DNA of 64,000 nt from Flavobacterium sp. KACC 22763 (GTDB lineage Bacteria > Bacteroidota > Bacteroidia > Flavobacteriales > Flavobacteriaceae), in the NCBI RefSeq assembly GCF_028736155.1, contig NZ_CP117879.1:310001-374000 (forward strand). The letters are read 5' to 3'. The notes beneath the pieces were generated by a model that did no database searches, was not told the DNA's origin, and was given only the letters and a program-made list of their open reading frames with translations. Each line of letters begins with the position of its first letter. The stretch's first letter is position 1. Below are positions 5,699 to 64,000 of this stretch, in pieces. The position numbers and the translations under genes were made by a program.

Positions 5699-5804
5699 GC
5701 GAAGATACTAAGTCTCTAAGTTACTAAGATGCTAAGATTTTAAGTTTTTAGTTTTGCGAAGAAAAAAGCTTAGAATCTTAGCATCTTAGTTTCTTAGTAT
5801 CTTT
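5699..5804. repeat. Imperfect inverted repeat built from CTAAG/CTTAG units
   Basis: The left arm (5699-5744) is a run of units such as AAGATGCTAAGAT. The right arm (5769-5804) reads CTTAGAATCTTAGCATCTTAG and onward, the near complement of the left. The two arms can form a long stem with a loop of about 25 bases. It sits in the divergent gap before guaA and is the only member of this family here that is not next to a stop codon. Confidence 0.7.
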
Positions 5805-5833
5805 CGGTGAAAAAAAAATATTTTTTTTCACCG
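5805..5833. other. Perfect A/T-rich hairpin upstream of guaA promoter
   Basis: A 13-bp perfect stem of CGGTGAAAAAAAA against TTTTTTTTCACCG surrounds a 3-base loop, ten bases upstream of the guaA -33 element. It has the form of a bidirectional terminator and may insulate guaA from upstream transcription. A regulatory role is possible but nothing here shows it. Confidence 0.6.
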
Positions 5834-5842
5834 TTCCGATTT

Positions 5843-5871
5843 TTGAATTTCGAATATAAAAAGTACTTTTG
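5843..5871 (+). promoter_or_regulatory. Promoter of guaA, start site at or beside the ATG
   Basis: TTG at 5843-5845 and TACTTTTG at 5864-5871 match the Bacteroidota sigma-ABfr consensus (TTG, then TAnnTTTG) with an 18-base spacer. The -7 box ends only three bases before the guaA ATG at 5875, so the predicted transcript would have almost no leader. Confidence 0.7.
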
Positions 5872-5874
5872 CGC

Positions 5875-7404
5875 ATGCAACACAACGTACTTATTTTAGA
5901 TTTCGGATCGCAATATACTCAGCTTATTGCGCGTAGAGTTCGCGAATTAAATATATTCTGCGAAATTTTTCCTTACAATCACATTCCAAGTGATTTATCA
6001 AGTTATAAAGCCGTAATTTTAGGAGGAAGCCCTTTCTCTGTTAGAGGAGAAGATGCACCGCATCCTGATTTATCGCAAATTAGAGGTAAAATGCCTTTAC
6101 TTGCTGTTTGTTACGGAGCACAATATTTAGCACACTTTAGTGGTGGAGAAGTTGCTGCTTCAAACACGAGAGAATACGGAAGAGCAAACTTGTCTTATAT
6201 TAAAGAAGGTGAAACTTTCTTTGAAGGAGTTTCAGAAAATAGCCAAGTTTGGATGAGCCATAGCGATAGTATCAAAGCGCTTCCAACAAATGCTGTAAAG
6301 CTTGCAAGCACGCATGATGTAGAATATGCAGCTTACAAAATTGAAGGCGAAACTACTTATGCAATTCAATACCACCCAGAAGTTTACCATTCAACAGATG
6401 GAAAACAGATGTTGGAAAACTTCTTAGTAAAAATTGCTGAAGTTCCTCAAAACTTTACTCCAAATGCTTTCGTTGACGAAATGGTAGCAGAATTAAAAGA
6501 AAAATTAGGAAACGATAAAGTGGTTCTTGGTTTATCTGGAGGAGTAGATTCTACAGTAGCAGCAGTTTTATTAAACAAAGCAATAGGACAAAACTTATAC
6601 TGTATCTTCGTTAACAATGGACTTTTACGTAAAAACGAATTCCAGAATGTATTAGATCAATACAAAGGAATGGGATTAAATGTAAAAGGAGTAGATGCTG
6701 GAGATCGTTTCCTTGGTGAATTAGCAGGAATTAGTGATCCAGAAACAAAACGTAAAACAATCGGTCGTGTATTTATCGAAGTTTTTGATGATGAATCGCA
6801 CTTATTAGAAGACGTAAAATGGTTAGCTCAAGGAACAATTTACCCAGACGTTATCGAGTCTGTTTCGGTAAAAGGACCATCTGCAACTATTAAATCACAC
6901 CACAACGTTGGTGGATTGCCAGATTATATGAAATTAAAAATTGTAGAACCGCTTAGAATGCTTTTCAAAGATGAAGTGAGAAGAGTAGGAGCTACATTAG
7001 GAATAGATCCTGAATTATTAGGAAGACACCCTTTCCCAGGACCAGGATTATCAATTAGAATTTTAGGAGATATTACTCCAGAGAAAGTTAGAATTTTACA
7101 AGATGTAGATTCTGTATTTATTGAAGGATTAAAATCTTGGGGATTATACGATAAAGTTTGGCAGGCTGGAGCAATTTTGCTTCCTGTAAACAGTGTTGGT
7201 GTTATGGGTGACGAGCGTACTTACGAAAAAGTAGTAGCGCTTAGAGCTGTAGAATCGACAGACGGTATGACTGCTGACTGGGTTCATTTACCTTACGATT
7301 TCTTGATGAAAGTGTCTAATGATATCATCAATAAAGTAAAAGGCGTGAATCGTGTAGTTTACGATATTAGTTCAAAACCACCTGCAACAATTGAGTGGGA
7401 ATAG
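5875..7404 (+). CDS. guaA: GMP synthase (glutamine-hydrolysing)
   Basis: GMP synthase converts XMP, ATP and glutamine to GMP in the cytoplasm, the last step of guanine nucleotide synthesis. It has 509 residues from the ATG at 5875; a TTG two codons earlier lies inside the promoter -7 box and is rejected. The class I glutamine amidotransferase domain comes first, with catalytic Cys79 in [10 protein letters not shown] and the His/Glu of QYHPEVYHS. The ATP-pyrophosphatase P-loop [13 protein letters not shown] follows at about residue 220, then the C-terminal dimerisation domain with [10 protein letters not shown] and the terminal KPPATIEWE. All parts are intact and the length is normal. The gene is monocistronic, bounded by a hairpin upstream and a terminator downstream. 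Confidence 0.98.
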
Positions 7405-9381: not shown

Positions 9382-9475
9382 TTTTTGAATGAAATAACAA
9401 ACGGCTCGAATTTTGCTTTTGGATAAATCTGTGAGATATTTTTAAATTAGAAATTAAATTGTTTTAAGCCATATT

Positions 9476-11548
9476 ATGAAATACTATTTAACATTATTGT
9501 CTCTTGTATTCTTTATCAGTTCAAGTGCTTTTTCTCAGGAAAAAGTGGTGAAATATAAAGTGTCAAGCGGTGAAACTATTAATCAGATTGCTCAAAAATT
9601 TAAGGTTACGCCTTATGATATTTATAAGCTGAATCCAGATGCCAGAACAGGATTAAGTCCAAATACAGTATTGTTGATTCCGACAACTGGAGAGGCAAAA
9701 AAAGAAGTTTCTGAAACTAAAACAGCTGTAGCTTCTGGAAAAGAAATTATTCATGAAGTACAGCCAAAAGAAACCTTTTACAGCATTGAGAAAAAATACG
9801 GAATCTCTGATGAAGCTTTAAAAGCCGCAAATCCGTTTTTAGAAAAAACAGGTGTTCAGATTGGACAGAAATTGGTTATTCCTGCAAAAGGATCTGCTCC
9901 AAAAACAGCTGCTAAACCTGCTAAAGAAAAAGGTGCTGAGAAATATGTGTATCATGATGTTCAGCCAAAAGAAACAAAATTTGGAATTGCAAAACAGTAT
10001 GATATGACTGTTGACGAATTGGAAAAACGCAATCCGGATATTGTTAACAGTTTGCCAGTTGGCTATAGATTGACCATAAAAGGAACAGCTCCAAAGACTG
10101 AACATGTTGCAACAGAAACAGCAAAGCCTGCTGAAAATAAGAAACCAGCTGAATCTTCAAAAAAAGCGGTGACTTATATGGAGTATCAGGTAAAACCAAA
10201 AGAAACGTTTTATAGTTTAGGAAGAGTTTTTCATTTATCACAAGACGAATTAGTAGCATTAAATCCGTCACTTTCTGAAGGGGTAAAAGAAGGAATGGTT
10301 CTGAAAGTTCCTGCTGGATACATAGCTCCTGCACCAATTATAGCGGCTCAAGTTCCTACTGAAAAGCCAGCAGATTCTTCAGTAAACAAACCAGTAGAAA
10401 GTACTGGTGGCGGAATTAAGATTGTTGATAAAGTAAAATCAACGGAAAACGAAAATGTAGAAATTGTAGAATTAACCAAAAAAAGAGGTGTTAACGAGCG
10501 TAAAAAAGTAGTTTTATTGCTTCCTTTTAATATGGCAAAAGTGCAAAGTGACACATCTGGAAAAACTAATAGAATTAAAAACGACAAGTTCTTAAATATG
10601 ACTTTAGATTTTTATTCTGGAGCTTTGATGGCGATTGATTCGGCAAAAACATTGAAGCTGCCAATTGATGTTGCGATTTATGATTCGCAAGAAACAAAAA
10701 CAACTTCGAGCATTGTAAGTTTAGTTCCAAAACTTCAGGATGCAGATGCTGTAATTGGGCCGTTTTATCAGAATAATGCAGAAGTAGCAGCCAATATGCT
10801 TCGCTCTAGCAATGTGCCAGTTATTTCTCCTTTATCAAAAGATGGCGCAAATCCGATTGACAATTTGTACCAGACTGTACCTGCAAATGATATCATCAGA
10901 AATTCAGTTTTTGATTATATGCGTTCTAAAAATGGAAATATCATAGCGGTTGTTGATAAGAAAAAAGAGTCGGTTATTAATTATATCAAACAAAACCAAA
11001 AAGGAGTTGCGTTTGCATCTTTGACTGAAACTGGAGGTTTAGATGTGGCTAACTTAAAAAGCTTATTATTGCCAAACCGAATGAATTATGTTGTAATGGA
11101 AACAGGAAATACAGCAATGGTTAAAGCTACAATCAAAGCTTTGTTAGATTCTCAGAAAACATGTCAGGTTCAGTTGGTAATTTTGGAACCAAATAGCACA
11201 TTAGATACTGATGAAATTAGTTTTGATAATTTGGTGAAACTGAAATTGATGTATCCTTCTGTTACTCGTGAAAACGACGAGCAGCCAGTTTTAATTTATG
11301 AAAAACAGTATCGTTTGAAAAATAAAGCTAATCCGACCACTTATGCAACTAGAGGTTTTGATGTAACGTTTGACACGATGATGCGTTTGATGCAAGGAAA
11401 AACATTTCAGGAAACAGCTGATTTGATGACGACTCAGCAAGTAGATAATAAATTTCAATATTATAGAAAAGAAGATGGCGGACACGCTAACAAAGGTGTT
11501 TACATCTTGTATTATGATACTGACTTAACTTTAAAAGTAGCAAATTAA
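9476..11548 (+). CDS. LysM protein with periplasmic-binding-protein-like domain
   Basis: A 690-residue exported protein. After the signal peptide (MKYYLTLLSLVFFISSSAFSQ) come four LysM domains at about residues 24-70, 92-138, 158-202 and 228-275, separated by Ala/Pro/Lys/Thr linkers. The C-terminal part, from about residue 345, resembles type I periplasmic binding proteins of the LivJ kind (KKVVLLLPFNMAKVQ, DFYSGALMAIDSA, DADAVIGPFYQNNAEVAANML, VISPLSKDGANPIDNLYQTVPA). Family proteins of this layout are common in Flavobacteriia with no assigned role. The domains suggest a wall-bound protein that binds a small ligand or acts as a scaffold. Its last codon overlaps the start of the OsmC gene, so the two are translationally coupled. 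Confidence 0.87.
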   Translation: MKYYLTLLSLVFFISSSAFSQEKVVKYKVSSGETINQIAQKFKVTPYDIYKLNPDARTGLSPNTVLLIPTTGEAKKEVSETKTAVASGKEIIHEVQPKETFYSIEKKYGISDEALKAANPFLEKTGVQIGQKLVIPAKGSAPKTAAKPAKEKGAEKYVYHDVQPKETKFGIAKQYDMTVDELEKRNPDIVNSLPVGYRLTIKGTAPKTEHVATETAKPAENKKPAESSKKAVTYMEYQVKPKETFYSLGRVFHLSQDELVALNPSLSEGVKEGMVLKVPAGYIAPAPIIAAQVPTEKPADSSVNKPVESTGGGIKIVDKVKSTENENVEIVELTKKRGVNERKKVVLLLPFNMAKVQSDTSGKTNRIKNDKFLNMTLDFYSGALMAIDSAKTLKLPIDVAIYDSQETKTTSSIVSLVPKLQDADAVIGPFYQNNAEVAANMLRSSNVPVISPLSKDGANPIDNLYQTVPANDIIRNSVFDYMRSKNGNIIAVVDKKKESVINYIKQNQKGVAFASLTETGGLDVANLKSLLLPNRMNYVVMETGNTAMVKATIKALLDSQKTCQVQLVILEPNSTLDTDEISFDNLVKLKLMYPSVTRENDEQPVLIYEKQYRLKNKANPTTYATRGFDVTFDTMMRLMQGKTFQETADLMTTQQVDNKFQYYRKEDGGHANKGVYILYYDTDLTLKVAN

Positions 11549-11949
11549 TGACATCAAAAGTAACCTATTTAGGAGATCTAAGAACAAGTTCAATCCATGT
11601 GCAGTCAGGAAGCGAAATCATTTCTGACGCACCAGTAGATAATAACGGAAAAGGAGAAGCATTTTCTCCAACAGATACTGTAGCAAACGCATTAGCAAGC
11701 TGTATGATGACGATTATGGGAATTAAAGCCCGTGATTTAGAAGTAGATTTTGTGGGTTCTACAGCAGAAGTAACTAAAATTATGAATGCAGAGCCAAGAA
11801 GAATTGGAGCAATCGAAATTGTGTTTCAAATGAAAAGCAATGCTGATGAAAAAAGCAAAACTATTTTGGAACGTGCAGCAATGACTTGCCCAGTATTTCT
11901 AAGTTTAAGCAGTGAAATAGAAAAGAAAATTACTTTCAACTGGAATTAG
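11548..11949 (+). CDS. OsmC/Ohr-family protein
   Basis: A 133-residue OsmC-family protein. Family members reduce organic hydroperoxides with a pair of Cys residues. Here the first Cys is in ANALASCMMTIMGIKA (about residue 52) and the second in ERAAMTCPVFLSLS (about 115), the expected places. The rest follows the family: ISDAPVDNNGKGEAFSPTD near the N-terminus and IEIVFQMKSN in the middle. The ATG overlaps the TAA of the LysM gene by one base, so it is probably read from the same message. The link to an envelope protein is not explained. A terminator follows. Confidence 0.9.
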   Translation: MTSKVTYLGDLRTSSIHVQSGSEIISDAPVDNNGKGEAFSPTDTVANALASCMMTIMGIKARDLEVDFVGSTAEVTKIMNAEPRRIGAIEIVFQMKSNADEKSKTILERAAMTCPVFLSLSSEIEKKITFNWN

Positions 11950-11970
11950 TTTTTTATCAAAAATAAAAGA

Positions 11971-12004
11971 AGCCATCTGAGAAAATCAGGTGGCTTTTTT
12001 GTTT
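11971..12004 (+). terminator. Intrinsic terminator after the OsmC gene
   Basis: A 10-bp stem with one G:T pair, AGCCATCTGA against TCAGGTGGCT, has a 5-base loop and is followed by TTTTTTGTTTT. It closes the LysM-OsmC operon. The minus-strand GH109 gene ends about 75 bases further on. Confidence 0.85.
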
Positions 12005-12080
12005 TACGAATTGTCTAAAACAGACAAGAGAGCAACATCTACTTTGCCCTCTTGTCCCTTACTAACTAACCAATAATATT

Positions 12081-13460
12081 TTATTCTGAAAACTCTAATT
12101 TTTTAAGTTTGTTCCAGCCTCCACGAGTAAAATCTGGGATCTCAACGGGAGCAGAATTATTGTCAAGAGAAATCTCTGTTAATGGCCCTAAACAAGACCA
12201 TTCCGCTAAATCGTAAACGTCCATATCAAGAGGAAGTCCTTTTTGCAGACAGTGAATTAAACGATAATCCATAATGAAATCCATTCCGCCGTGACCGCCT
12301 ACTTTTTTGGCTTGTTCTTCAATTCCTTTTGCAATTGGATGTTTGTATTTTTCCATTAAAGCTTTTTTTACTTCTTCAGGAACAAAAGAGTGTGCACTCA
12401 ATTTTTCGTGGTTTGGTTTTACATCATCACCTAACTCTTTTCCGTCAAGCGCATAACCTTCCAATGGATATTTGTTAGCAAATCCTTTTGTACCGCTCAA
12501 CTGATACATTCTGCTATAGGGACGAGGAGAAGTAACATCGTGCTGAATGTGGATTGTTTTTCCGTTTTCAGTGCGAATCATTGTCATCGTGTGATCTCCG
12601 TTTCTAAAATCTTTAATTTCCTGTCCTGATTTTTCTTTAATGTAAGCAGGATTTCCAACGGCTTTTGTATCCATAGAAACCAAGAAATTCATTTTGTCAC
12701 CACGGTGAATGTTTAATGCCTGGCACGCAGGCCCCATCCCGTGTGTCGCATAAACATCCCCGCGGTGTTTGATGTTGTAGTCCATTCTCCAGTTATTCCA
12801 GTATTCTCCCCAGAATGGCTGTAAACCGTGAATGTATGAACCTTCTGCATGTAGAATTTCTCCAAAAACGCCTTGCTGTGCCATGTTTAGAGTAGTCAAT
12901 TCGAAGAAATCATAAACACAATTTTCCAATTGCATGCAGTGTTTTCTCGTTTTTTCCGAAGTATCAATCAGTTCCCAGATTTCTTTCATGGTTAAAGCGC
13001 CTGGAACTTCAATCGCAACGTGTTTTCCGTCTTTCATGGCTTGAACTCCAATAATAGCATGATGTTTCCAATCTGTAGCAATATATACCAAATCTACGTT
13101 TGGCAAGGCTGTAACTTTTCTCCAAGCATTTTCATCGCCATAGAATTCTTGCGCTTTTGGAAAACCAGCTTTCGTTAAAATTTCATTCGATTTTGAAGTA
13201 TTTTCCTGAGTCATGTCGCACAACGCCACAATTTCTACACCGGGAATATGTGTCATACGTTCAACCGCGCCCGGACCGCGCATTCCCAGTCCGATAAAGG
13301 CAACACGAACCGTCGGAATTGGATCTGCAGCCATTCTTAATACGTCTTGCTGTCCTTTTGGGCGAGAAGGAGTTTTGGTCTTAATCATTTGTGCAGAAGC
13401 AATCGTCCATCCAAACAAAAGAAAAAGAACTATTGCCGATTTAAAAAATGTAGTTTTCAT
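12081..13460 (-). CDS. GH109-type alpha-N-acetylgalactosaminidase (Gfo/Idh/MocA fold)
   Basis: A 459-residue exported enzyme from ATG 13460, chosen because MKTTFFKSAIVLFLLFGWTIASAQ is a clean signal peptide; a more upstream ATG adds 10 polar residues. The NAD-binding Rossmann motif is VAFIGLGMRGPGAVERM. The body carries long stretches typical of Bacteroidota GH109 proteins, such as HCMQLENCVYDFFELTTLNM, YATHGMGPACQALNIHRGD and KKVGGHGGMDFIMDYRL. GH109 enzymes remove terminal alpha-GalNAc (for example from blood-group A) by an NAD-dependent redox mechanism in which the cofactor stays bound. It is the last gene of the minus-strand glycan locus and pairs with the DUF3472 gene 41 bases upstream. 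Family assignment is strong; the natural glycan is inferred. Confidence 0.9.
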   Translation of the reverse strand: MKTTFFKSAIVLFLLFGWTIASAQMIKTKTPSRPKGQQDVLRMAADPIPTVRVAFIGLGMRGPGAVERMTHIPGVEIVALCDMTQENTSKSNEILTKAGFPKAQEFYGDENAWRKVTALPNVDLVYIATDWKHHAIIGVQAMKDGKHVAIEVPGALTMKEIWELIDTSEKTRKHCMQLENCVYDFFELTTLNMAQQGVFGEILHAEGSYIHGLQPFWGEYWNNWRMDYNIKHRGDVYATHGMGPACQALNIHRGDKMNFLVSMDTKAVGNPAYIKEKSGQEIKDFRNGDHTMTMIRTENGKTIHIQHDVTSPRPYSRMYQLSGTKGFANKYPLEGYALDGKELGDDVKPNHEKLSAHSFVPEEVKKALMEKYKHPIAKGIEEQAKKVGGHGGMDFIMDYRLIHCLQKGLPLDMDVYDLAEWSCLGPLTEISLDNNSAPVEIPDFTRGGWNKLKKLEFSE

Positions 13461-15169: not shown

Positions 15170-17029
15170 TTAATTTGGTTTTGCTATCTCAACACTTAAT
15201 TCTGTATTCTTTAAGTTTAGCTCCGTTGGCTGCATTCCTGTCAGAAGAATATTTTTTCCTAATACATCTTTTTCAATTTTGTTTCCGCTAATTTCTACAT
15301 TTTTGCAGGCCTCAATTCTAAAGTTGTATTTCTCTGGATACCAAGGAGTAAAAGCATAACTACGCTTGATCAAATTGTTTTTAAAACTTAATCCGTCTAC
15401 AGAAACGGCGTAAAGAATAGGGTAGTCTGAAGGGTTAAAACTGTTATTTTCTATTTTTATATTTTTATGAAATGGCTGCAAAGCATTTGGTGCTGGAATT
15501 TCAGGATAAATGCTTATAATTGCTTCGCAAAATTGATAATAAGAGGAATTGCAAGGAAATCTAAATTCATTGTTTTTGATGGTAATATCTTTTACAGCAC
15601 CGCTTTCGAACCAATAATTTGCATCTCCCGCTATAAGAATGGCCGAGCCACTGGTTTCGAAAATATTATTAGATATTACCACTTTTCCTGGAGTAGATAT
15701 TAAATAACCACGCGCACGATTGCTGCCCACAAAGCAATTTGTAATTGTAGCATTTGGCGTCCAACTTAGATTTTCCAGAACAAAATTGGCATCTATATCG
15801 GTCGGAATTTTTTCTTTGAATCTGATAATAAAATGATCTACATCTAACGGTTCAAAACTTGAAACAATTCCGTAAGACATCGTGTTCATTTCTTTTTTCT
15901 GAATAAAGCCAACTTTATCTCCAGTCACAGCCCATAATAATCCGTGAGACATATTTTGTCCAAAGTTACATTTTACCGAATAGTCGTCTATTTTTTGCAT
16001 TACCGGCACATAGGTTCCATGAATGTTAATAGGATCATCCATTAGGCCTTGTGCGTCACAATTGTCTATTATGATTTCGCCCTTGCATCCCATAAAATGC
16101 AAACCATCATCATGTCCGCTGAGATATCGATTTTTTTTAGGATTTGGAATCATATTTACTTTTCTCATCTCAATATTTTCGCAGTATTGAGATAGAATTC
16201 CTAATCCAGAAGTATGGTAAACATTAATATTCTCTAGTTTAGTGTTTTTGCTATGAAATAAAAACATTCCAGCGTGATCACGTTTTCCGTGTCTTAATAT
16301 TACAAAGTTTCCAACGGCGGGTGTTTTGGTAAAATTTCCTTTCATTACTACCAATCCTGGTTTTACTTCGCTGTAAATTACATTCTTTAAATCTCCTTTT
16401 ACACAACCATTATCACCGGTATTTGCTGGAATAATATGGTTTTTGTCAAATTCAATTAACCACGAACCTTCAGAGAGCGCCCAGTTTTCATTAGTATTTT
16501 CTCCTATAAAAGTCAAACCTTTTTCATGGATTTTGTAGGGAGATTGAGCTATATCAATTTTCATTAGAATGTGATTTTCATCTGCTTCAATAATTTCGGC
16601 TTCAGATGTTAGAGGAACATCCCAATCGATGTTTACATTTTTGATTGTGATGTTTTCTGCATTATCTAATGTAAAAGGCTGAATATGCTCATGGTACACA
16701 AAATCAGATTGCTGAGCATCAATCGTAATATTTTTTTTGTTTTTTATGAGAATGGCCAGTTTTCTGGTATCGGCATCATAAGTATTGCTCTCATAATAAG
16801 TTCTGTAATAATTGGCATCAGGATAGAAATCATAACGTCCTTTCTGAAAAATTATTTCTACAGATTCGCTTCCCAATCCTTCAATAAGCTGATTAACTTT
16901 TGCAGTTAAATTTTCTTTGGTATTAGCCATAATACCATAATCTTTTACGTTTATTTTTTTTACCTTATTTTGAGCAGTGCAAATGGTTAACAAAAAAAAT
17001 GAGATGGATGTTAAAAAGAATTTTTGCAT
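15170..17029 (-). CDS. GH110-type alpha-1,3-galactosidase
   Basis: A 619-residue exported right-handed beta-helix enzyme of GH110, which inverts and releases terminal alpha-1,3-linked galactose, as in blood-group B or linear alpha-Gal. The signal peptide is MQKFFLTSISFFLLTICTAQ. Family hallmarks are HTSGLGILSQYCENIEMRKV, PNPKKNRYLSGHDDGLHF and GLMDDPINIHGTYVPV; the paired Asp residues in GHDDG and MDDP are the likely catalytic region. C-terminal parallel-beta-helix repeats continue (ITIKNNEFRF, IKIENNSFNP). Together with the GH109 gene it suggests attack on both A- and B-type caps. A terminator separates it from the M1 peptidase gene upstream, so it may need its own promoter, which I could not identify. 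Confidence 0.9.
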   Translation of the reverse strand: MQKFFLTSISFFLLTICTAQNKVKKINVKDYGIMANTKENLTAKVNQLIEGLGSESVEIIFQKGRYDFYPDANYYRTYYESNTYDADTRKLAILIKNKKNITIDAQQSDFVYHEHIQPFTLDNAENITIKNVNIDWDVPLTSEAEIIEADENHILMKIDIAQSPYKIHEKGLTFIGENTNENWALSEGSWLIEFDKNHIIPANTGDNGCVKGDLKNVIYSEVKPGLVVMKGNFTKTPAVGNFVILRHGKRDHAGMFLFHSKNTKLENINVYHTSGLGILSQYCENIEMRKVNMIPNPKKNRYLSGHDDGLHFMGCKGEIIIDNCDAQGLMDDPINIHGTYVPVMQKIDDYSVKCNFGQNMSHGLLWAVTGDKVGFIQKKEMNTMSYGIVSSFEPLDVDHFIIRFKEKIPTDIDANFVLENLSWTPNATITNCFVGSNRARGYLISTPGKVVISNNIFETSGSAILIAGDANYWFESGAVKDITIKNNEFRFPCNSSYYQFCEAIISIYPEIPAPNALQPFHKNIKIENNSFNPSDYPILYAVSVDGLSFKNNLIKRSYAFTPWYPEKYNFRIEACKNVEISGNKIEKDVLGKNILLTGMQPTELNLKNTELSVEIAKPN

Positions 17030-17058
17030 TTTTAGTTGAGATTTTTAGTTAAAAAAAC

Positions 17059-17083
17059 AACCTCTCTAATGAACCAAATTAGA
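17059..17083 (-). terminator. Intrinsic terminator between M1 peptidase and GH110
   Basis: On the minus strand a 12-bp perfect stem (ATTAGAGAGGTT with its complement) is followed by a run of T residues. It would stop or reduce transcription from the M1 peptidase gene before GH110, splitting the locus into at least two expression units. Confidence 0.75.
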
Positions 17084-17126
17084 GAGGTTTTCAAAAACAA
17101 AAACAGACCTAAAGGATTCTTACTAA

Positions 17127-19310
17127 TTATTTTTGACTACTAAATCTTTTCATTAATGGCGTTACATGTTTTTGGGTATCGTCATCTAATGAAGCTAATG
17201 CTTTATCTGCTTCGGCTGGCGCGTATTTTGTTAATCCTGATAATCCAGCTGCAATTACGTTGTATGATTGTTCTTTTATGCTTTCTTCCATTAAGCTTTT
17301 ATAAGAAGCATCGCCTGTAGAAGCTAATTTTACAATAGCATTTGCTCTTGCAATAGTTTTTTTGTCGTTTTTAGCAATATCAAGAAGTGTTTTTAAAACC
17401 TGATCTTTGGTTTGTTTTTCATTTAAATCAATTGCTTTGATGCTCAATACTCTTAAATCTTCTTGTGGATCTTTTAAACCTTCCAGTAAAATAAGCTGTG
17501 ATTCCTGACTTCTGTCTTTTGACGCAAATTTTATAGCTTCAATTCGGTTGTAATACGATGGCGCATTTTTATATTGATAAAGATAATCAGCAGCCGTTTT
17601 TTTATCTACATTAACTTCTCCAACTAAGATCTTATCTGGATCTAAATCTATAAATTCAGGTTTTGAAGAAATGTCAAAACTGAAGCTTTGCTGTCTTTTA
17701 TTAATTAAAATATCCTTTCTGATTTTAGTTCCGTTTACGTAAAAATCAACTTTTAAAGGCAGTGTAAAGGTTTGCACCGAACTATCCTGAGATTGATTTA
17801 TTGTAATGATAACTTTTCCATTGGCATATTTGTAAGTCACATCCAGAATCGGACTTCCAGCATTATAATACCATTGTTCAAAATAAGGCAACCAGTCTTT
17901 TCCAGTCACTTCTTCCATCGATAAACGCAATTGATGCGGTTCGCCAGATTTATAAGCATTTGTGGTTAAATAATGATTTAGTCCTTTAAAGAATGCTTCA
18001 TCACCCATTTGATTTTTCATGGCATATAAAATAATCGAACCTTTAGAATAGCTGATATTATCAAACATATCGTCTGCATTTTTGTAATGAAAACGTGCTA
18101 AAATAGGACTGTCACCATTTTTTTGAGAACGCAAATAATTCTGCAATTTTTCATAACGCGATCTGTCTTCCGCATCTTGTCCGGCATCGTGCCCGTGCCA
18201 AAGCACTTCTCCAAAAGTGGCAAACGATTCATTCATGGTTAAGTTTGACCAAGATTCAGCCGTTACATAATCTCCAAACCATTGATGAAAAAGCTCGTGA
18301 GCAATGGTGCTTTCTTGATTATCATCTAATAATTCTCGTTCTGTTTTCTGAACATATTCACCATGAACGGTTGCTGATGTATTTTCCATTGCACCACCAA
18401 AATAATCTTTCACCACAATCTGCGCATATTTCGCCCAAGGATATTCTACGCCAAGCATTTTGCCGTAAAAATTCATCATATCTGGCGTTTTATAAAAAAT
18501 CTGTTTGGCATACGGCGCATATTTTGGCTCTAAATAATAGCTGACTTCTTTACCTTTATAAGAATCTTTATAGATTTTAAAATCACCAACGGCCATCATA
18601 AACAAATAAGGCGCATTTGGCTGTTCCATTTTCCAGATATCCGTTCTTGTTCCGTCTTTATTTACTTTTTGCGAAGCCAATTTACCGTTTGAAAGTGTAG
18701 TATATTTAGCCTCAACAGTCATAGCAAGTTCAGAAGTTGTTTTCTGATTTGGTTTGTCAATTGTTGGGAACCAGCAAGACGAAGCTTCTGTTTCGCCTTG
18801 CGTCCATATTTGTATTGGTTTGTCTCCCTTTCCATCAGGATTAATAAAATACAATCCGTTTGAGTTGGTAATCGATTCGCCGGCTTTGCTTTTTAGTTCT
18901 GCTGGTTTGGCAGTGTAATTAATGAAAATCGTGTACTTTTCAGTTTTTTTGTATTTTCTGTTTAAAGCGATAGAAAGTTCCTCGTTATCGTATTTGTATT
19001 GTAACGGAATACTTTTTTTGCCGTCGATAATAGCAATTTCTTTAAAATCCATTCCTTTTGCATCTAGCTTAAGCGAATCAGTTTCGTAGAAATGCGGTTT
19101 TAAAGTAATCCATTCCTTTCCATACAAATAGCGTTTTCCATAATCGAAAGAAACTTCCAGTTTGGTATGAATTAAATCGTGTGTTTTTAAAGGAGTAGCG
19201 CGATAAATGGATAATTCATCAACCTTTTCTGCTTTGTTTTGTGCCTCAATTTTTGGACTCATCAAAACGACAAGACCCAAAAAAATATATTTTAAAAAAT
19301 GGTTTTTCAT
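17127..19310 (-). CDS. M1-family zinc aminopeptidase with HEAT-like C-terminus
   Basis: A 727-residue exported metallopeptidase (signal MKNHFLKYIFLGLVVLMSPKIEAQ). The M1 exopeptidase motif GAMEN is at residues 306-310. The zinc site HELFH is at 338-342 with the third ligand Glu361 in NESFA, exactly the HExxH-x18-E spacing. The region after about residue 590 has alpha-helical HEAT-like repeats (QLILLEGLKDPQEDLRVLSI, IARANAIVKLASTGDASYKS). It would trim peptides from their N-termini in the periplasm or at the surface. Within a glycan locus it could process the peptide part of glycoproteins released by the glycosidases; that link is inferred from position only. Ends 98 bases before the GH110 gene, with a terminator between. 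Confidence 0.93.
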   Translation of the reverse strand: MKNHFLKYIFLGLVVLMSPKIEAQNKAEKVDELSIYRATPLKTHDLIHTKLEVSFDYGKRYLYGKEWITLKPHFYETDSLKLDAKGMDFKEIAIIDGKKSIPLQYKYDNEELSIALNRKYKKTEKYTIFINYTAKPAELKSKAGESITNSNGLYFINPDGKGDKPIQIWTQGETEASSCWFPTIDKPNQKTTSELAMTVEAKYTTLSNGKLASQKVNKDGTRTDIWKMEQPNAPYLFMMAVGDFKIYKDSYKGKEVSYYLEPKYAPYAKQIFYKTPDMMNFYGKMLGVEYPWAKYAQIVVKDYFGGAMENTSATVHGEYVQKTERELLDDNQESTIAHELFHQWFGDYVTAESWSNLTMNESFATFGEVLWHGHDAGQDAEDRSRYEKLQNYLRSQKNGDSPILARFHYKNADDMFDNISYSKGSIILYAMKNQMGDEAFFKGLNHYLTTNAYKSGEPHQLRLSMEEVTGKDWLPYFEQWYYNAGSPILDVTYKYANGKVIITINQSQDSSVQTFTLPLKVDFYVNGTKIRKDILINKRQQSFSFDISSKPEFIDLDPDKILVGEVNVDKKTAADYLYQYKNAPSYYNRIEAIKFASKDRSQESQLILLEGLKDPQEDLRVLSIKAIDLNEKQTKDQVLKTLLDIAKNDKKTIARANAIVKLASTGDASYKSLMEESIKEQSYNVIAAGLSGLTKYAPAEADKALASLDDDTQKHVTPLMKRFSSQK

Positions 19311-56737: not shown

Positions 56738-57370
56738 TCAGAAATCTATCTTCTTCAATTCCTTATAATTAGCGTACAATCGTCTTAAAAGAGTTCCGTA
56801 GATGATTCTGTAAAAGCACCAGAACAATCCGAAGAATCCTAAAATTACTAGGAACAATATTCCGATTGTAACAAACATAGCTTTTCCGTTCATGGCTAAT
56901 TTTTCTCTCAGAAATTCCATATCTGGATTGTAGACAAAAGCAATAAAGAAACTTAGAATGGCTGTAATTACAATCATTCCTAAATTGTACCAAACATAAT
57001 ATTGCACCGTTTTACGGGTTTTTAGGATAGCGCTCATCAAAGACTTTGTGGCTATTGTGGTCGAAATTGTTTTATAATTTTTGTAGAAGATGTAAACAAA
57101 AATTAAAACAACCACATAATTGAAATAGGTAAGGAACTCTAAGGCAGTTACGATTTCAGGGTGATTCATTTTGTGCAAGACATCATCTGTATTGATAAAA
57201 ATGTTTGAAAAAGTCCAAAACGAAATTTCCAAAATACTGATAATCAAAATCCATTTTACAATGGAAGATGATTTTCTATGAATCATCTTATAGATTTCGT
57301 TTTCAGAAATTTGTTGAAAAGAATCAGAGTTCTTTTGCCAGTCTTTTTTTAATAAATCCAGTTCTTTCAT
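56738..57370 (-). CDS. Membrane protein paired with an ECF sigma factor
   Basis: A 210-residue protein with a short hydrophilic N-terminal part (ELDLLKKDWQKNSDSFQQIS) and four membrane segments (IVKWILIISILEISFWTFSN, ALEFLTYFNYVVVLIFVYIF, YYVWYNLGMIVITAILSFFI, FVTIGILFLVILGFFGLFWC). It follows the sigma factor gene by 8 bases and so may be its anti-sigma or a partner. Genes at this place in Flavobacterium are often labelled beta-carotene monooxygenase in databases, which is not supported by any motif here. Family is not otherwise recognised. Confidence 0.7.
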   Translation of the reverse strand: MKELDLLKKDWQKNSDSFQQISENEIYKMIHRKSSSIVKWILIISILEISFWTFSNIFINTDDVLHKMNHPEIVTALEFLTYFNYVVVLIFVYIFYKNYKTISTTIATKSLMSAILKTRKTVQYYVWYNLGMIVITAILSFFIAFVYNPDMEFLREKLAMNGKAMFVTIGILFLVILGFFGLFWCFYRIIYGTLLRRLYANYKELKKIDF

Positions 57371-57378: not shown

Positions 57379-57873
57379 TTAAGGATTTAGTATTTTTTTA
57401 AGTTTCCCCTTAATTCTGTTCATTTTCACGCGCGCATTCACTTCGCTGATCCCTAAGGTTTCAGCTATTTCTTGATAATCTTTGTCTTCTAAATACATAA
57501 AAACTAATGCCTTTTCGATGTCATTTAATTGATAAACCGCTTTATACATCAGTTTAATCTGTTCTTCTTCTTCATAATTGTAGTCAACATCTTTTACAAA
57601 ATGCTGATGATTTTCATAATCTACGGTCGATATAGTTCTTTTGGTTTTGCGATATAAGGTAATCGCTGTGTTTAAGGCAACACGATACGTCCAAGTCGAA
57701 AATTTACTGTCGCCTCTAAATTTTGGATAAGCTTTCCAAAGCTGAATGGTAATCTCTTGAAACAGATCTTTATGAGCATCTTCGCCAGCAGTATATAATC
57801 TACAAATCTTGTGGATTATATTCTGATTTGCTTGCAGCTGCGCAACAAAAGATTGTTCTAGATTTTCGCTCAT
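57379..57873 (-). CDS. ECF-type RNA polymerase sigma factor
   Basis: A 164-residue sigma-70-like factor of the extracytoplasmic function group. Region 2 is visible in NQNIIHKICRLYTAGEDAHKDLFQEITIQL and WTYRVALNTAITLYRK. Region 4 is in YLEDKDYQEIAETLGISEVNARVKMNRIKG. Its partner is probably the membrane protein 8 bases downstream. The targets are not known; the plugless barrel gene starts 154 bases away in the opposite direction and is a possible target, but only by position. Confidence 0.93.
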   Translation of the reverse strand: MSENLEQSFVAQLQANQNIIHKICRLYTAGEDAHKDLFQEITIQLWKAYPKFRGDSKFSTWTYRVALNTAITLYRKTKRTISTVDYENHQHFVKDVDYNYEEEEQIKLMYKAVYQLNDIEKALVFMYLEDKDYQEIAETLGISEVNARVKMNRIKGKLKKILNP

Positions 57874-58026: not shown

Positions 58027-60804
58027 ATGAATAAATTATTACTCTTACTTTTTGTAACCACAGCCAGTTTTTCGCAAAAAATCTATAAGGGAAATGTAAG
58101 TGATAAAGGAACACCTATTCCAGGCGTATCTGTATGTGTTGTAAACACTTCAAGATGCACATTTACAGATTTTAATGGAAATTATTCTATAGAAGTTAAT
58201 TATGGAGATAAACTCCGTATCTCATATCTTGGAATGAAAACTCAAACTATTACAATTGGGGCTAATATGGTATTAGAAGGTAAAAATGACAATTATGCTA
58301 ACCCAATAATAAGTAATGATTATGTAGAAAATTTAAAAAAGCCAAAAGATTCTATAAAAGCGACTCAATCATCAGGCGATTATTATTTTGATCTTGTCGA
58401 ATACCTTTACAATTACAATCAATCTTTAATGAAAATTAATAGGGATAATTCGGGTGTTTATAATGCTAAAACGTATCATCAATATTCGAAAGTAGCATTT
58501 CAGGTAAATCATGATTTTGTTTATTCCACACCAATGCGTCTTCCAAAATATCAAAATCAATTCGCACAAGGTAGAAGTTTAAATGGAAACTTGGCTTATC
58601 AATCACCTCAAACTAATGAAATTTTCAGCTGGGGACCAAATGTGAGTACATTGCAATATTCTGCAAATCCTTCAGAATATTATCCGCAGGGAGATATTAT
58701 CAATAGAAATTCTAGCAACGGAAATCCATTACAGCTTTTTAATTCTAACAACTTTTTCCAGGACACGCAGGATAATAAAGTGTCTTTCAGCGCACAAATT
58801 CAAAGTCCAGAGATGAATATTCTTAAGTTTGATTTTGGATATAAAACAGGAAATATTGTAATTCCGACTAGTCGAAATAATGAGATTTCAGCTTCCTTAA
58901 AATATTTCAGAACACTTTCTTTCAATAGCAAAATAGATGCGATTTTGTCTTATAATGATTTCGAAAACAATTTTTCAAATTCAAACTTTGGAATAAATAA
59001 AGTCATTTTTGCCAATGCTGTAACTCCAATTCATTTTGACAATCATTTTGCTTCAACTTTATCAAACGGATTGCAGAGAAGTTATTCTGCAAATGAGAAC
59101 AATCCGTATTATTTGATTGAGAATAATTTAGATAAAAATAAAAGTAAAACGATCTCTTTCAACTTTAATCATATCTATTCTTATAATAATTATTTGAACA
59201 CGTTTAACGCTAATTTTCAATCGTCAGAAATTAAAAATAAAAACGGTCAGGGATTTTATTTTGCCGAAATTAATACGCCAAATTTTGACAGGAGATTTGA
59301 GGGATTTATAAGCTATTCTCTCTCAGATGTTTTTAGACGCAATTTTGGATATGCGAAATTTGTAGAATCTAAAATCGATTTTAGATTTCAGCAAAGAGAT
59401 TTAGATCGTAGTTTTTATTCTGGTTTTTCAGCGCCATCAGACATTCCTGATAATGGAACAATTCAAAATAAAATGGATGTTTTGCAGAAAAGATTTGAAA
59501 TTTTCTACAATATAAATGGAGCATATAATATTAGTAATGCTTTAGGATCGAATGAAGAACTTACCCTAAAAGCAAGTTCAAACTTAAATTATTCTTCTAC
59601 TGTAAATAGCAATTTTTTGTTTAACTATTCTGGCTCTGCTGAAATAAAAAGATTATTTGATACATCTTTCAATTTCACAGCAAGTCACACTTTTACGCAA
59701 ACAGAACCATCATTGCAGAATAATAATTTGAATTTTAATTCTTTGCAATATCAAGTAAGTCAATTTAAAGAGCTTAGAAATAATTTAGAACTTATAACTC
59801 CAAAGAATGCAATTCCGACAAAAGAAAATATTACAAACTTAACATTAACATACAGACCTAGTTATTATTGGAATTTCTATGTAGAATATTACCATAAAAA
59901 TGTTCAGGATTTGTATACGCCAGTTGTTAATCTTAATTCTTTTAATTGGTCTCCAGATGTGAATTATAAGCAAAATGGAGTTGAATTTGAAATTGAAAAA
60001 CAGACAGAACGAAATAGAGATTTTAATTGTGGTTTCAATTTGAACTTTACTTATTATAAAAATAAAGTAACGAGTTTGAATAACAATCAAACCAGAATTC
60101 CATTTGCAGGATTTGCAGATGTCAATAAAAACTATATCGTTGGGCAACCGCTTGGAGTTCTTGTTGGAAGCGGTTATTTAAGAGATCAAAATCAAAATAT
60201 AGTTATTGATAATGAAGGTTTTCCGATGGTAGACCCTCAGCAAAAGATTTTAGGAGATCCGAATCCAGATTTTGTTGTCGGATTCTTTAATTCATTTTGT
60301 TACAAAGAATTTAGTCTAAGCCTTTCTTTTGATTGGAGTAAAGGAGGAGAAATCTGGAACGGAACTGAGCAGACTTTAAACTACTACGGTAAATCTCAAT
60401 TAACAGGAAACCAGAGAGATATTACGAATTATGTTTTTAATGGAGTCACACAATCTGGCGATGTAAATACCAAAGTAGTTTCGTTTTATGACAGCAATCT
60501 TCCGGTTGAACAAAATCGTTGGGTGAGGTATGGAGTTTCTGGTGTAGCCGAAGACGCTATTCAAGATGCTAGTTATTTTAGGCTTAATTCAATCAATTTA
60601 TCATATAAAAGTGATTATGGCATTTTTAGAGGGAAACTAATGTTTACTATTTCGGTCTTTATGAACAATGTTTTTGTTGTTTCCAAAAGTAAAACGGCAT
60701 TTAGCAATAATGCGATGTTCGGGTCTATAGATACAAGCGGTTTAGAATATTTCAACTCGCCAATGATGAAAAGTTTCGGTTCTTCTTTAACTGTAAAATT
60801 TTAA
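58027..60804 (+). CDS. SusC/RagA-like outer membrane barrel lacking a plug domain
   Basis: A 925-residue outer membrane protein with a signal peptide (MNKLLLLLFVTTASFSQ) and a carboxypeptidase-regulatory-like domain (about residues 18-80, KGNVSDKGTPIPGVSVCVV, ISYLGMKTQTITIG). Where SusC proteins then have a TonB box and plug of about 130 residues, this one goes almost directly into barrel strands (from about residue 120). The barrel continues with typical SusC C-terminal features: GQPLGVLVGSGYLRDQNQNI, KILGDPNPDFVVGFFNSFCY, DASYFRLNSINLSYKSD, and a terminal Phe. The next gene starts one base after the stop and carries the missing plug. The two probably form one complex. Confidence 0.88.
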   Translation: MNKLLLLLFVTTASFSQKIYKGNVSDKGTPIPGVSVCVVNTSRCTFTDFNGNYSIEVNYGDKLRISYLGMKTQTITIGANMVLEGKNDNYANPIISNDYVENLKKPKDSIKATQSSGDYYFDLVEYLYNYNQSLMKINRDNSGVYNAKTYHQYSKVAFQVNHDFVYSTPMRLPKYQNQFAQGRSLNGNLAYQSPQTNEIFSWGPNVSTLQYSANPSEYYPQGDIINRNSSNGNPLQLFNSNNFFQDTQDNKVSFSAQIQSPEMNILKFDFGYKTGNIVIPTSRNNEISASLKYFRTLSFNSKIDAILSYNDFENNFSNSNFGINKVIFANAVTPIHFDNHFASTLSNGLQRSYSANENNPYYLIENNLDKNKSKTISFNFNHIYSYNNYLNTFNANFQSSEIKNKNGQGFYFAEINTPNFDRRFEGFISYSLSDVFRRNFGYAKFVESKIDFRFQQRDLDRSFYSGFSAPSDIPDNGTIQNKMDVLQKRFEIFYNINGAYNISNALGSNEELTLKASSNLNYSSTVNSNFLFNYSGSAEIKRLFDTSFNFTASHTFTQTEPSLQNNNLNFNSLQYQVSQFKELRNNLELITPKNAIPTKENITNLTLTYRPSYYWNFYVEYYHKNVQDLYTPVVNLNSFNWSPDVNYKQNGVEFEIEKQTERNRDFNCGFNLNFTYYKNKVTSLNNNQTRIPFAGFADVNKNYIVGQPLGVLVGSGYLRDQNQNIVIDNEGFPMVDPQQKILGDPNPDFVVGFFNSFCYKEFSLSLSFDWSKGGEIWNGTEQTLNYYGKSQLTGNQRDITNYVFNGVTQSGDVNTKVVSFYDSNLPVEQNRWVRYGVSGVAEDAIQDASYFRLNSINLSYKSDYGIFRGKLMFTISVFMNNVFVVSKSKTAFSNNAMFGSIDTSGLEYFNSPMMKSFGSSLTVKF

Positions 60805-60805: not shown

Positions 60806-63800
60806 ATGATGAAAAATATACTCTCAATATTGTTTTTGCTGTTATTTACGGCTCTGACAGCTCAAAATATAGAAGCCGACTGGAATACTGTTTACAAAAA
60901 TTCTAAAACAGAAAAAGTATATGTGCAGTTAAATAATGTTTTGTATAATCCTGGCGAAACTGTTTTTTTTAAAGCATTTATTACCGAAAGCGACAATAGG
61001 CCAACTACATTAAGTGCATACTTATATGTTGAATTTTTTCAAGGTAATAAAAAAGTATTTAGCCAGAATTATGAAATAGAAAACGGCAGCGCTGTATGCT
61101 CGTATAAAATTCCGAGTGATGCAGTTGCCGGTTTGTACAAAATAAAAGCTTACACTAAAATTCAAAATCAGTTATCTGAAAATATTTTTGAGAAGACCTT
61201 TTTTGTGCAAAAAGTAGTTTCTCCAAGAATTTTGATGACGCTGGATTTTAAGAAAAAAGCATATGGAAAAGGGGAAACCTGTGAAGCCGATTTTGTACTT
61301 AAAAATCTGGATAATGAGCCAATTCGAAATTACGATTTTAAATATGATGTATTTGTTTCGGGAAAAAAAATCGATTCGCTGAAAGGAAAAACAGATGATT
61401 TAGGAAAAGCTGTAGTTCAATTTAAATTGCCAGCAAATTTAGATTCTAATGACGGAATTCTAAATGTAATGCTCGATTATGATAATTTTAAAGAATCTGT
61501 AACGCGTTCGATTCCAATTAGTTTAGATTTTGTTGACTTGCAATTTTTAGCAGAAAGTGGCAATATGATTTTAAACGAATTATCATCCTTATATTTTATT
61601 GCTAAAAATGAATTTGGTCTTCCAATGGATGTTGCAGGATTTATTGAAGATGAAAATGGAAATAAAATAACAGATTTTAAATGCATTCATGACGGAATGG
61701 GAAATGTAATGCTGAAAACCGAAGGAACTAAAAAATATTTTGCAGTTGTAACTTCTCCTTTTAAATCAAATGAAAAAATCGCTCTGCCAATAGCAGAAGA
61801 AAATGTCTTTACCATAAATGCTAAAAGGAAAACAGAAACAGTTTTGCTTAATATTTATGCTCCATTAGAAATTGAAGGAAAAGTTTTGGTTAGAAACCTG
61901 GCTCAAATTTGCAAAACAATTAACTTGAATTTGAAAAAAGGATGGAATGTTATTGAAGTAAACACAAAAGATTTTCCTGTCGGAATTCATTCTTTTTCGT
62001 TACTAATAAAAGATAATGTTGTTGCAGAAAGATTGGTTTTTCTAAACTATCAAAACGGACTAAAAATCGAAATTAAAACCGATAAAGAAACGTATTTGCC
62101 TAGAGAAAAGGTAAATGTTTCAATTGTAACAAAGGACAAAAATAATATGCCGATTCCGTCAAGTTTGTCAGTTTCTGTAGTCGATTCAAAATTACTCACT
62201 TATATTGATGATAAACAGGATAATATTTTGTCATGGCTTTTTCTTGGATTTGAGTTAAAAGGAAAAATACATGAACCAAGATTTTATTTTGATGATAATA
62301 AAACTCAGGAAATAAAAGAAGAAGCAATTGATTTACTGTTGAATACACACGGATGGAGAAAGTACAATCAAAAAAATCTTCAAAATTTAGTGTCAGAAGT
62401 AAAAAACGGAATCTTACCAGAACAAAATAATGGGATAGCAGGTTTTGTTACAAATCAAAGAAAAAAAGGAGTTTCAAAAAAAGTGCTTCTTTTTTCAGAT
62501 GGTGGAAAAGTTTATGAAACAAAAAGCAATTCCAGTGGCTATTTTATCTTTAATAAAGTTTCCTTCTCAAACTTTGCTTATTTGCTAGTTGAAGGGAAAA
62601 ACAATGGTGAAGAATATTTGATAACAAATTCATATACAAATAGTAGTAGGTTCTTGTTAATGAAAGATACACTTAGAAATAAAACACCGTTAGAAGTAAG
62701 TTTTAGACCAACTGAGACAAAAGAAACGATAACAGAAAGTGGTCAGATTAGGGGAACTCCAATTGTTATGTCATCAGATTCGGCTGAGTTATCAGACGTA
62801 GTAGTTGTAGGTTATGGAATGAGTAACAAAAAATTGATTTCTGGAGCCATTACAAAAATAAGTGCAACAGATATTATTAGTAGTTCTTTAAGCGGAAGAG
62901 TAGCTGGAGTTCAAATAACAGAATCTTCTGGACAGCCAGGATCTGCAGACAAAGTCAGAATTAGAGGTTTAAGTTCAGTCTATGGAAATAGAGCGGGAGG
63001 ACAGCCTTTAATTGTTGTAGACGGAATTGCTTATGTAAACAATGAAAACTCCTCGGTATTTGGCAATTTATCGGTAAATTCTATAGAATCGGTTACAATT
63101 CTGAAAGATGCTTCGGCAACCGCTATTTACGGATCTGCAGGCAGTTCTGGCGTAATTTTGATCACTACAAAAGGCAGACTCTTTCAAGGAAATATTCTTT
63201 TAGGAAAAAAATATAAATACTCTTATCAGGAAATAAATAAAACTTCGGCTAAAGCGATAAGTATAGCAGAAAGGTTTTATGTGCCAAAATATCAATCGAC
63301 AATCGTAGAAGAAAAAACAGATTTTAGAACTTGTATTTACTGGAATTCAATTATTCAGACCGATAAAAATGGTAAGGCTAATTTCGAATTTTATAATTCT
63401 GATGATAATACTTCTTTTAAAATTCTAGCCGAAGGAACATCTTATAAAGGTGATCTTGGAAAATCGGAAGCTGTTTTTTCTGTAAAAGAGCTAATTCAGA
63501 CAGATGTAAAAGTGCCGCTTTATGCTTCTCAGGAAGATGTAATTGCAGTGCCGCTTTGGCTGAAAAATAATTCAGACAAAGACTTAAACTTAACCTATAA
63601 AGTGAAGTTTTATGAAAAAAAGGATTTGATCGAACAAACTGCTTCTGTCGGGCTGAAACCAAATGAAACGAAAAGCATTAATATCAAATTAATTGCGTCT
63701 AAAATTGGAAAAGATATACCGTTGGAAATTGCCTTAACTGGAGACAATTATAAGACAACTATTAAAAAAACAATTGATGTATATTCAAAAGGATTTCCTG

Positions 63801-64000
63801 TAAATATTGATATTTCTGGGGTAAAATCTCAAACAACAGATTTTGTAATTCAAGATGTATTTCCGGGATCAATTACTTCTGATTTTAAATTGTTTTACAA
63901 TCCATTTTCTTCAATTTTCAGTACTCTCGAAGGAATGGTGCGTGAACCTTACGGATGTTTTGAGCAAGTTTCTTCTTCAAATTATCCTAATATCATGGCA
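60806..64000 (+). CDS. Alpha-2-macroglobulin-like protein with embedded TonB box and plug domain (partial)
   Basis: An open frame from ATG 60806 through the window edge, 1065 codons so far; a second ATG follows immediately. A signal peptide (MMKNILSILFLLLFTALTAQ) has no lipobox. Macroglobulin-like beta-domains occupy about residues 25-500 (LNNVLYNPGETVFFKAFI, VSIVTKDKNNMPIPSSLSVS), followed by AIDLLLNTHGWRKYN and a carboxypeptidase-regulatory-like domain (about 543-590). Residues 664-790 are a TonB box and SusC-type plug (SDVVVVGYG, SLSGRVAGVQITESSG, VRIRGLSSVYG, LIVVDGIAY, ILKDASATAIYGSAGSSG). Further macroglobulin-like domains lead to PYGCFEQVSSS, a C-x-E-Q thioester motif (Cys1051, Gln1054). 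It follows the plugless barrel by one base. Confidence 0.9.
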   Translation, partial: MMKNILSILFLLLFTALTAQNIEADWNTVYKNSKTEKVYVQLNNVLYNPGETVFFKAFITESDNRPTTLSAYLYVEFFQGNKKVFSQNYEIENGSAVCSYKIPSDAVAGLYKIKAYTKIQNQLSENIFEKTFFVQKVVSPRILMTLDFKKKAYGKGETCEADFVLKNLDNEPIRNYDFKYDVFVSGKKIDSLKGKTDDLGKAVVQFKLPANLDSNDGILNVMLDYDNFKESVTRSIPISLDFVDLQFLAESGNMILNELSSLYFIAKNEFGLPMDVAGFIEDENGNKITDFKCIHDGMGNVMLKTEGTKKYFAVVTSPFKSNEKIALPIAEENVFTINAKRKTETVLLNIYAPLEIEGKVLVRNLAQICKTINLNLKKGWNVIEVNTKDFPVGIHSFSLLIKDNVVAERLVFLNYQNGLKIEIKTDKETYLPREKVNVSIVTKDKNNMPIPSSLSVSVVDSKLLTYIDDKQDNILSWLFLGFELKGKIHEPRFYFDDNKTQEIKEEAIDLLLNTHGWRKYNQKNLQNLVSEVKNGILPEQNNGIAGFVTNQRKKGVSKKVLLFSDGGKVYETKSNSSGYFIFNKVSFSNFAYLLVEGKNNGEEYLITNSYTNSSRFLLMKDTLRNKTPLEVSFRPTETKETITESGQIRGTPIVMSSDSAELSDVVVVGYGMSNKKLISGAITKISATDIISSSLSGRVAGVQITESSGQPGSADKVRIRGLSSVYGNRAGGQPLIVVDGIAYVNNENSSVFGNLSVNSIESVTILKDASATAIYGSAGSSGVILITTKGRLFQGNILLGKKYKYSYQEINKTSAKAISIAERFYVPKYQSTIVEEKTDFRTCIYWNSIIQTDKNGKANFEFYNSDDNTSFKILAEGTSYKGDLGKSEAVFSVKELIQTDVKVPLYASQEDVIAVPLWLKNNSDKDLNLTYKVKFYEKKDLIEQTASVGLKPNETKSINIKLIASKIGKDIPLEIALTGDNYKTTIKKTIDVYSKGFPVNIDISGVKSQTTDFVIQDVFPGSITSDFKLFYNPFSSIFSTLEGMVREPYGCFEQVSSSNYPNIMA

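Follow-up and report, generated by a model that had tools for sequence, protein, structure and literature searches.

A SusC-type plug inside a thioester macroglobulin beside a plugless barrel: a candidate split TonB-dependent transporter in Bacteroidota

What does the plug of an outer-membrane transporter do inside a macroglobulin? The question is raised by two adjoining genes at the end of the window, the 64,000-nucleotide stretch of Flavobacterium sp. KACC 22763 analysed here (contig NZ_CP117879.1, positions 310,001 to 374,000). One encodes a SusC-type barrel protein, the other an alpha-2-macroglobulin (A2M)-like protein that contains a SusC-type plug. Judged from sequence comparison, and with a probability of about 0.6, the two genes are best read as a single SusC-type TonB-dependent transporter, divided where plug and barrel meet. 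Its plug would be supplied in trans on a periplasmic thioester macroglobulin and pulled by TonB, possibly coupling the opening of the gate to covalent capture.

Two halves in adjacent genes

The reading frame that opens at 60806 remains open through the window end and closes, in the surrounding genome, at 1,513 amino acids (aa). The two genes and their parts are these:

58027..60804, + strand: plugless SusC-type barrel protein, 925 aa (SusC/RagA barrel match; AlphaFold2 model)
58087..58260, + strand: CarboxypepD_reg-like (NTE) domain at the N-terminus of the barrel protein, residues 21-78 (CarbopepD_reg_2, PF13715, E 5.1e-12)
58486..60801, + strand: barrel proper, residues 154-925, which align with SusC structures immediately beyond their plug
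60806..64000, + strand: macroglobulin-plug gene, with residues 1-1065 of 1,513 inside the window and the rest beyond it (full extent 8806-13347 of locus L009)
60806..60862, + strand: probable signal peptide without lipobox, by eye on the sequence
60869..62425, + strand: macroglobulin (MG) domains preceding the insert
62432..62629, + strand: CarboxypepD_reg-like domain ahead of the TonB box, residues about 543-608 (alignment with relatives)
62789..62806, + strand: TonB box LSDVVV, residues 662-667
62795..63175, + strand: SusC-type plug, residues 664-790 (Pfam, NCBIfam; profile against BT1763, E 4.8e-44)
63338..63592, + strand: A2M (PF00207) domain after the insert, residues 845-929 (Pfam, E 1.7e-5)
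63923..64000, + strand: start of the thioester domain, CFEQ at 63956-63967; remainder beyond the window

The initial annotation had described macroglobulin domains flanking a SusC-type TonB box and plug, a description that Pfam and NCBIfam matches bear out. MG2 lies at residues 37-124 (Pfam, E 2.5e-15) and the Plug domain at residues 691-783 (Pfam, E 2.1e-12), while residues 638-790 match the SusC/RagA model (NCBIfam, E 2.1e-46) and residues 760-789 carry the SusC signature (NCBIfam, E 3.5e-15). It had also noted GCFEQ near residue 1051 and expected the remaining thioester domain (TED) past 64000; both are confirmed, with CFEQ at residues 1051-1054, within GCFEQ, and a complete TED at residues 1040-1310, mostly past the window (Pfam, E 1.9e-22). 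A receptor-binding domain, A2M_recep, occupies residues 1423-1501 (Pfam, E 7.9e-6). Inspection by eye agrees with its call of a signal peptide lacking a lipobox, and a loose lipobox pattern matches 5 of 75 N-termini of the family, the window protein not among them. The CarboxypepD_reg-like domain is not significant in the window macroglobulin; in relatives PF13620 matches at the same place, weakly to clearly.

The MG-domain keyring fold of A2M is present in the macroglobulin by a whole-model fold match, and the CXEQ thioester motif of type I A2Ms lies inside its TED. The thioester part obtains a far higher phmmer score with animal A2M/CD109 than with YfhM. When aligned with CD109, no histidine of the macroglobulin falls opposite a CD109 histidine, a weak hint of amine-type reactivity on which we do not rely.

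Pfam domains in three relatives place the insert between the A2M_BRD (bait-region) and A2M domains. The bait-region slot is filled by the plug, whose linkers could still act as bait. Because the MG part preceding the insert has no significant sequence match to solved A2Ms when searched alone, this placement rests on the three relatives, the whole-model fold match and the plugless sister proteins described below. Misassembly, a frameshift or a chance fusion was considered as the source of this architecture and ruled out, because it recurs in dozens of genomes.

A single base separates the barrel gene, which ends at 60804, from the macroglobulin start at 60806 on the same strand. The barrel protein has SusC barrel similarity at residues 616-925 (NCBIfam), and its AlphaFold2 model is a confident SusC-type barrel without a plug (mean predicted local distance difference test score, pLDDT, 89.3; predicted template modelling score 0.81). 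It can be classed as a SusC-type outer-membrane barrel on its sequence match and overall fold. The initial claim that this neighbour lacks its own plug is confirmed by Pfam, with no plug match at E 0.05 in the 925 residues, and by the model. No TonB box is seen by eye in residues 18-160; the box lies in the neighbouring macroglobulin. That the barrel gene hides a plug, or what is left of one, was ruled out by a permissive search of 71 family barrels, which returned no plug (best E 0.36 with a first plug model and 0.004 with a larger one). The three best matches to the larger model fall at residues 687-750, which is not the plug position, and as a control the same plug model detects a plug in every one of 20 ordinary SusCs from the host genome.

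On a SusC chain, the plug stops close to where the barrel begins. The plug aligns with BT1763 up to chain index about 230, or about residue 205 as numbered in the structure entry, by a 25-residue offset inferred from a chain length of 1041 against a last residue of 1016 (profile E 4.8e-44), and the barrel model aligns to BT1763 210-1016, that is, onward from the plug end. The plug and barrel proteins are complementary SusC halves.

Occurrence of the pair

Relatives were gathered from one genome per GTDB species, with the macroglobulin part behind the plug as query, so that ordinary SusCs could not enter the scan. The best 80 of at least 528 relatives were kept by similarity. The plug is present in 76 of these 80 and GCFEQ in all 80. 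For 71 of them at least 2.4 kb lies upstream of the chosen macroglobulin open reading frame (ORF), and every one of the 69 plug-bearing relatives in this set has a plugless barrel upstream on the same strand. The other two, L082 and L137, are plugless themselves; L082, on a 4.9-kb contig that reaches no further upstream than the gene itself and with the gene in three ORFs, was dropped from the pair count. Nine of the 80 loci have less than 2.4 kb upstream, and one of these, L113, shows a partial barrel. The macroglobulin start, taken as the nearest in-frame ATG, lies within 10 nucleotides (nt) of the barrel stop in 64 of 71 pairs, a count that takes in the window pair and L113; the two widest gaps measure 322 and 1,199 nt. 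Two further plug-bearing pairs, L170 and L171, come from genomes outside the best 80.

Homologous gene pairs are thus conserved in other Bacteroidota, in 69 of 69 judgeable plug-bearing relatives, and two plugless relatives, L137 and L169, stand without a barrel. This comparative genomic pattern supports the proposal of the initial annotation that the macroglobulin subunit may act as a trans-acting plug for the adjoining barrel.

The rows of the plug alignment bear on what the plug would be for. A TonB-box-like string precedes it in 77 of 77 rows (76 relatives and the window protein; loose pattern), and the SusC motifs of the plug are kept in the aligned segments of the relatives. One of the two main rivals to the split transporter, which we consider unlikely, holds that the plug is an anchor only, docking the thioester macroglobulin under an outer-membrane barrel as an entry-point protease trap with neither TonB pull nor transport. 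Such docking would suit a protein that shows no lipobox and would need another tether, and the low-confidence stretches flanking the plug might remain usable as bait. Excerpts of PMC4498604 describe E. coli A2M as held at the inner membrane. Against an anchor stand the SusC motifs, which it would not need, and the TonB-box-like string, dispensable for mere anchoring, which persists in distant lineages.

The system of macroglobulin and plug is widespread but patchy in Bacteroidota. The best 80 include Flavobacterium, Maribacter, Aquimarina, Winogradskyella, Moheibacter, Chitinophaga, Niastella, Sphingobacterium, Cesiribacter, Chryseolinea and Plebeiobacterium, among others. The closest named relatives of the macroglobulin gene are from Flavobacterium, and the host genome is a single contig of 5.56 Mb. 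Within the genus, 6 of 121 genomes have a full-length match (61-100% identity); in the five besides the host genome, the plug is present and an ORF with the barrel's C-terminal end adjoins the macroglobulin start. An even draw of 395 genomes across the phylum gave a strong match (E <1e-100) in 5, four of them plug-bearing. Among database homologues, our own plug model found the plug in 120 of the 120 matches listed from a search returning 445. A contig of a metagenome-assembled genome titled Limnohabitans (L068) also carries the pair, at about 50% identity to the window pair; it is probably a binning error.

No third partner gene was found. Each of the 25 largest neighbour clusters covers at most 13 of the 81 loci, and the large clusters represent neighbours shared at genus level or ORFs that run antisense to the macroglobulin. 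The other main rival is that the pair is an export gate. It supposes that TonB-driven plug removal lets proteins, perhaps macroglobulin adducts or a protease, leave the periplasm, and there is a precedent in the TonB-dependent transporter Oar, required for secretion of the protease PopC in Myxococcus (PMC6434023). However, no protease or cargo gene is prominent beside the pair in those 25 clusters, and among solved structures the barrel's closest kin are SusC/RagA importers. We regard export as doubtful, more so than anchoring.

Divergently upstream of the pair in the window lie two genes that are possible regulators of it:

57379-57873, - strand: extracytoplasmic function (ECF)-type sigma factor
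56738-57370, - strand: membrane-like protein without Pfam match

The membrane-like protein is common to 11 Flavobacterium-like loci, and a sigma-factor-like cluster spans 13 loci, those 11 together with L112 and L137. Two further ORFs were observed near members of the family. At L171, a 775-aa ORF (3878-6202) with a plug (E 3e-27) and no barrel-model match lies directly upstream of the plugless barrel, in addition to the macroglobulin plug. At L009, a 260-aa protein (16693-17475, - strand) has a CarboxypepD-like N-terminus, by eye, and the TonB-box-like string ALEEVVIAP, with no barrel.

Relatives that lack the plug

Relatives in which the bait slot holds something else show what accompanies the plug. 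L137, among the best 80, and L169, outside them, carry a plain linker of 126-130 other residues in the slot. They are the only plugless relatives with a judgeable neighbourhood, and neither has a barrel neighbour. L169 is a full thioester macroglobulin from a genome, G251, that is 100% complete. G251 has no barrel-family member, its best match to that family being 71.5 bits against 1,079.6 and 1,103.8 in two pair-bearing genomes; ordinary SusC-like matches remain. The genome of L137 (G511, completeness not stated) has a best barrel-family match of 46.6 bits. By eye the linker appears disordered; a crude composition measure does not separate the L137 linker from the plug (0.66 against 0.67). 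A search at the level of the order around G251 (98 genomes) for more plugless relatives returned only G251 itself.

These cases bear on a further reading, that the macroglobulin is a regulator visiting several SusC barrels, the adjacent one being one partner of many. The plug is a fairly generic SusC plug, and each of the 20 ordinary SusCs tested matches the plug family model, at 99.7-155.8 bits. Those barrels, however, are already plugged (20 of 20), and the two judgeable relatives without a plug have no adjacent barrel either, G251 keeping its ordinary SusC-like matches. We consider a roving regulator very unlikely.

In three other relatives the slot of the thioester macroglobulin holds a TonB C-terminal domain (PF03544) together with a CarboxypepD domain:

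L136, 159-5198: TonB_C type, E 6.2e-13
L108, 3-3143: TonB_C type, E 2.0e-16
L082, 3-2480: TonB_C type, E 5.1e-19

L108 and L136 also keep a TonB-box-like string there. TonB C-terminal domains bind the TonB boxes of receptors, so this second design, too, ties the macroglobulin to the Ton system at the bait place. The finding favours a Ton link.

In a midpoint-rooted tree of the MG and A2M parts, from which L082 and L108 were left out as incomplete, the plugless L136, L137 and L169 (support 0.98) lie within the plugged proteins as sister to the plugged L106 (0.92). A midpoint-rooted tree of the thioester part includes all five plugless proteins and groups L108, L136, L137 and L169 (0.978), again with L106 (0.952); L082 stands near this group but apart from it, with weak support. 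Because the plugless proteins nest among plugged ones, the simplest reading of the trees suggests that the plug was lost or replaced and that in the two judgeable cases the barrel was lost too.

A separate clade (support 1.0 in the MG and A2M tree) consists of thioester-less MG proteins of about 760-935 aa (L016-L021, L172-L183). They share MG domains with the window protein, and most keep a remnant of a plug in the same slot. Unlike it, they have no thioester domain, their plug is degenerate or undetected (the plug model matches 10 of the 12 main ORFs of L172-L183), and no plugless barrel lies near them in any of the 12 loci. Receptor ORFs with plug and barrel similarity occur at L173 and L177, and a 1,031-aa ORF with a plug at L175. 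Thioester-less MG proteins are common in Bacteroidota: together with the full-length family they occur in 38 of the 395 genomes at E <=1e-40.

A gate that may arm a trap

How would the split transporter work? The barrel protein would form the outer-membrane pore, and the macroglobulin, exported probably through its ordinary signal peptide and folded in the periplasm, would supply the plug and TonB box in trans. A SusC plug has its two ends on the periplasmic side, which makes an insert with two linkers feasible, and the plug would enter its neighbour's barrel from the periplasm. The macroglobulin ring and thioester domain would then hang beneath the pore. On arrival of cargo, TonB would pull the box and remove the plug. 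Plug extraction, or cleavage of a linker by an entering protease, should free the thioester arm, because the plug occupies the element whose cleavage springs other macroglobulins. The freed thioester could covalently capture a protein coming through the pore. Two outcomes are possible: the captured protein is imported, or the gate is guarded and intruding proteases are trapped.

Some of these steps have precedents. In E. coli A2M, cleavage of the bait untethers a disordered segment and leads to a large movement that exposes the thioester, as described in excerpts of PMC4498604. TonB has been proposed to pull the entire plug out of SusC, and displacement of the plug was observed in vitro; deletion or replacement of the TonB box VDEVVV of BT1763 causes growth defects on levan (excerpts of PMC7782687).

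Several points weigh against the split transporter with a trans plug. The relatives examined are the best 80 of at least 528, selected for similarity, and the joint loss is read from two loci, the contigs of L082, L108 and L136 ending before the upstream region. No SusD-like lid or protease gene is prominent in the neighbour clusters, although the loci were not scanned singly for SusD. In a single-chain model of the macroglobulin, the plug region is of low confidence, with blocks of pLDDT 27-65, as are the stretches beside it. Across 32 thinned loci, the correlation between plug distances and barrel distances is weak (r 0.36, partial 0.16). Barrel distances track those of MG and TED (r 0.88 and 0.84), as in co-inherited genes, and plug distances track all other parts poorly (r 0.25-0.36), so that the analysis yields no special plug-barrel signal. 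When the 20 ordinary SusCs of the host genome are compared with each family, their closeness to the barrels and their closeness to the plugs are negatively correlated (Spearman -0.46, p 0.04), and the halves therefore need not share one ancestral SusC. With this and the weak distance correlation, the idea that one ancestral SusC was simply cut in two is not supported. Finally, the coupling of gate and trap is a conjecture drawn from the position of the plug in the bait slot.

Each part has known relatives, but a barrel without plug and TonB box and a macroglobulin with a plug in the bait place both fall outside the full definition of their families. The barrel fold, the SusC-type plug sequence and TonB box and the CarboxypepD-like domain before the box are those of SusC/RagA transporters (BT1763, BT2264, RagA), which differ in having plug and box on the barrel polypeptide; no SusD-like gene is prominent beside the pair. 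The window macroglobulin shares the MG-domain fold and CXEQ thioester with type I bacterial A2Ms (E. coli YfhM/ECAM, Salmonella Sa-A2M). Unlike them it has a SusC plug at the bait place, no lipobox by eye and a barrel rather than PBP1c as partner. In type 9 secretion, the Bacteroidota outer-membrane channel SprA is closed by a separately encoded Plug protein, which, unlike the window plug, is not known to be a TonB-receptor plug or to be joined to a macroglobulin. Split-transporter work on FhuA reportedly combined a separately supplied plug with a plugless barrel. Likewise, an FpvAI plug expressed as a soluble protein of its own complements in trans an FpvAI barrel that lacks one, partially restoring uptake (excerpts of PMC10994204). 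Both laboratory splits are engineered, whereas the split in the window is natural and its plug lies within a macroglobulin.

No description of a macroglobulin with a TonB plug was found in the open-licence literature searched (titles and abstract starts), subscription journals and preprints lying outside this scope. The term 'macroglobulin' does not occur in the accessible portion of PMC12611786 or in the first 300,000 characters of PMC3482391. The database names of such proteins are 'TonB-dependent receptor plug domain-containing', 'MG2 domain-containing' or 'alpha-2-macroglobulin-like', so the constituent domains are visible to automatic annotation.

We tentatively extend the split-transporter reading to a trap driven by the proton-motive force. 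TonB might pull a plug that at the same time serves as bait in a complement-like thioester protein, making the opening of the outer membrane and the arming of covalent capture one mechanical event by which Bacteroidota could seize proteins in passage; the TonB_C sister design might dock the trap at ordinary receptors. If the split-transporter reading is true, the pair would be, within the same open-licence literature, the first natural TonB-dependent transporter with its plug in trans and the first link of the Ton energy system to complement-type thioester chemistry. A separate plug protein would also provide a clean test of the long-argued question whether TonB removes the whole plug or a part of it. 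For bacterial macroglobulins, the pair would offer a role at the outer membrane.

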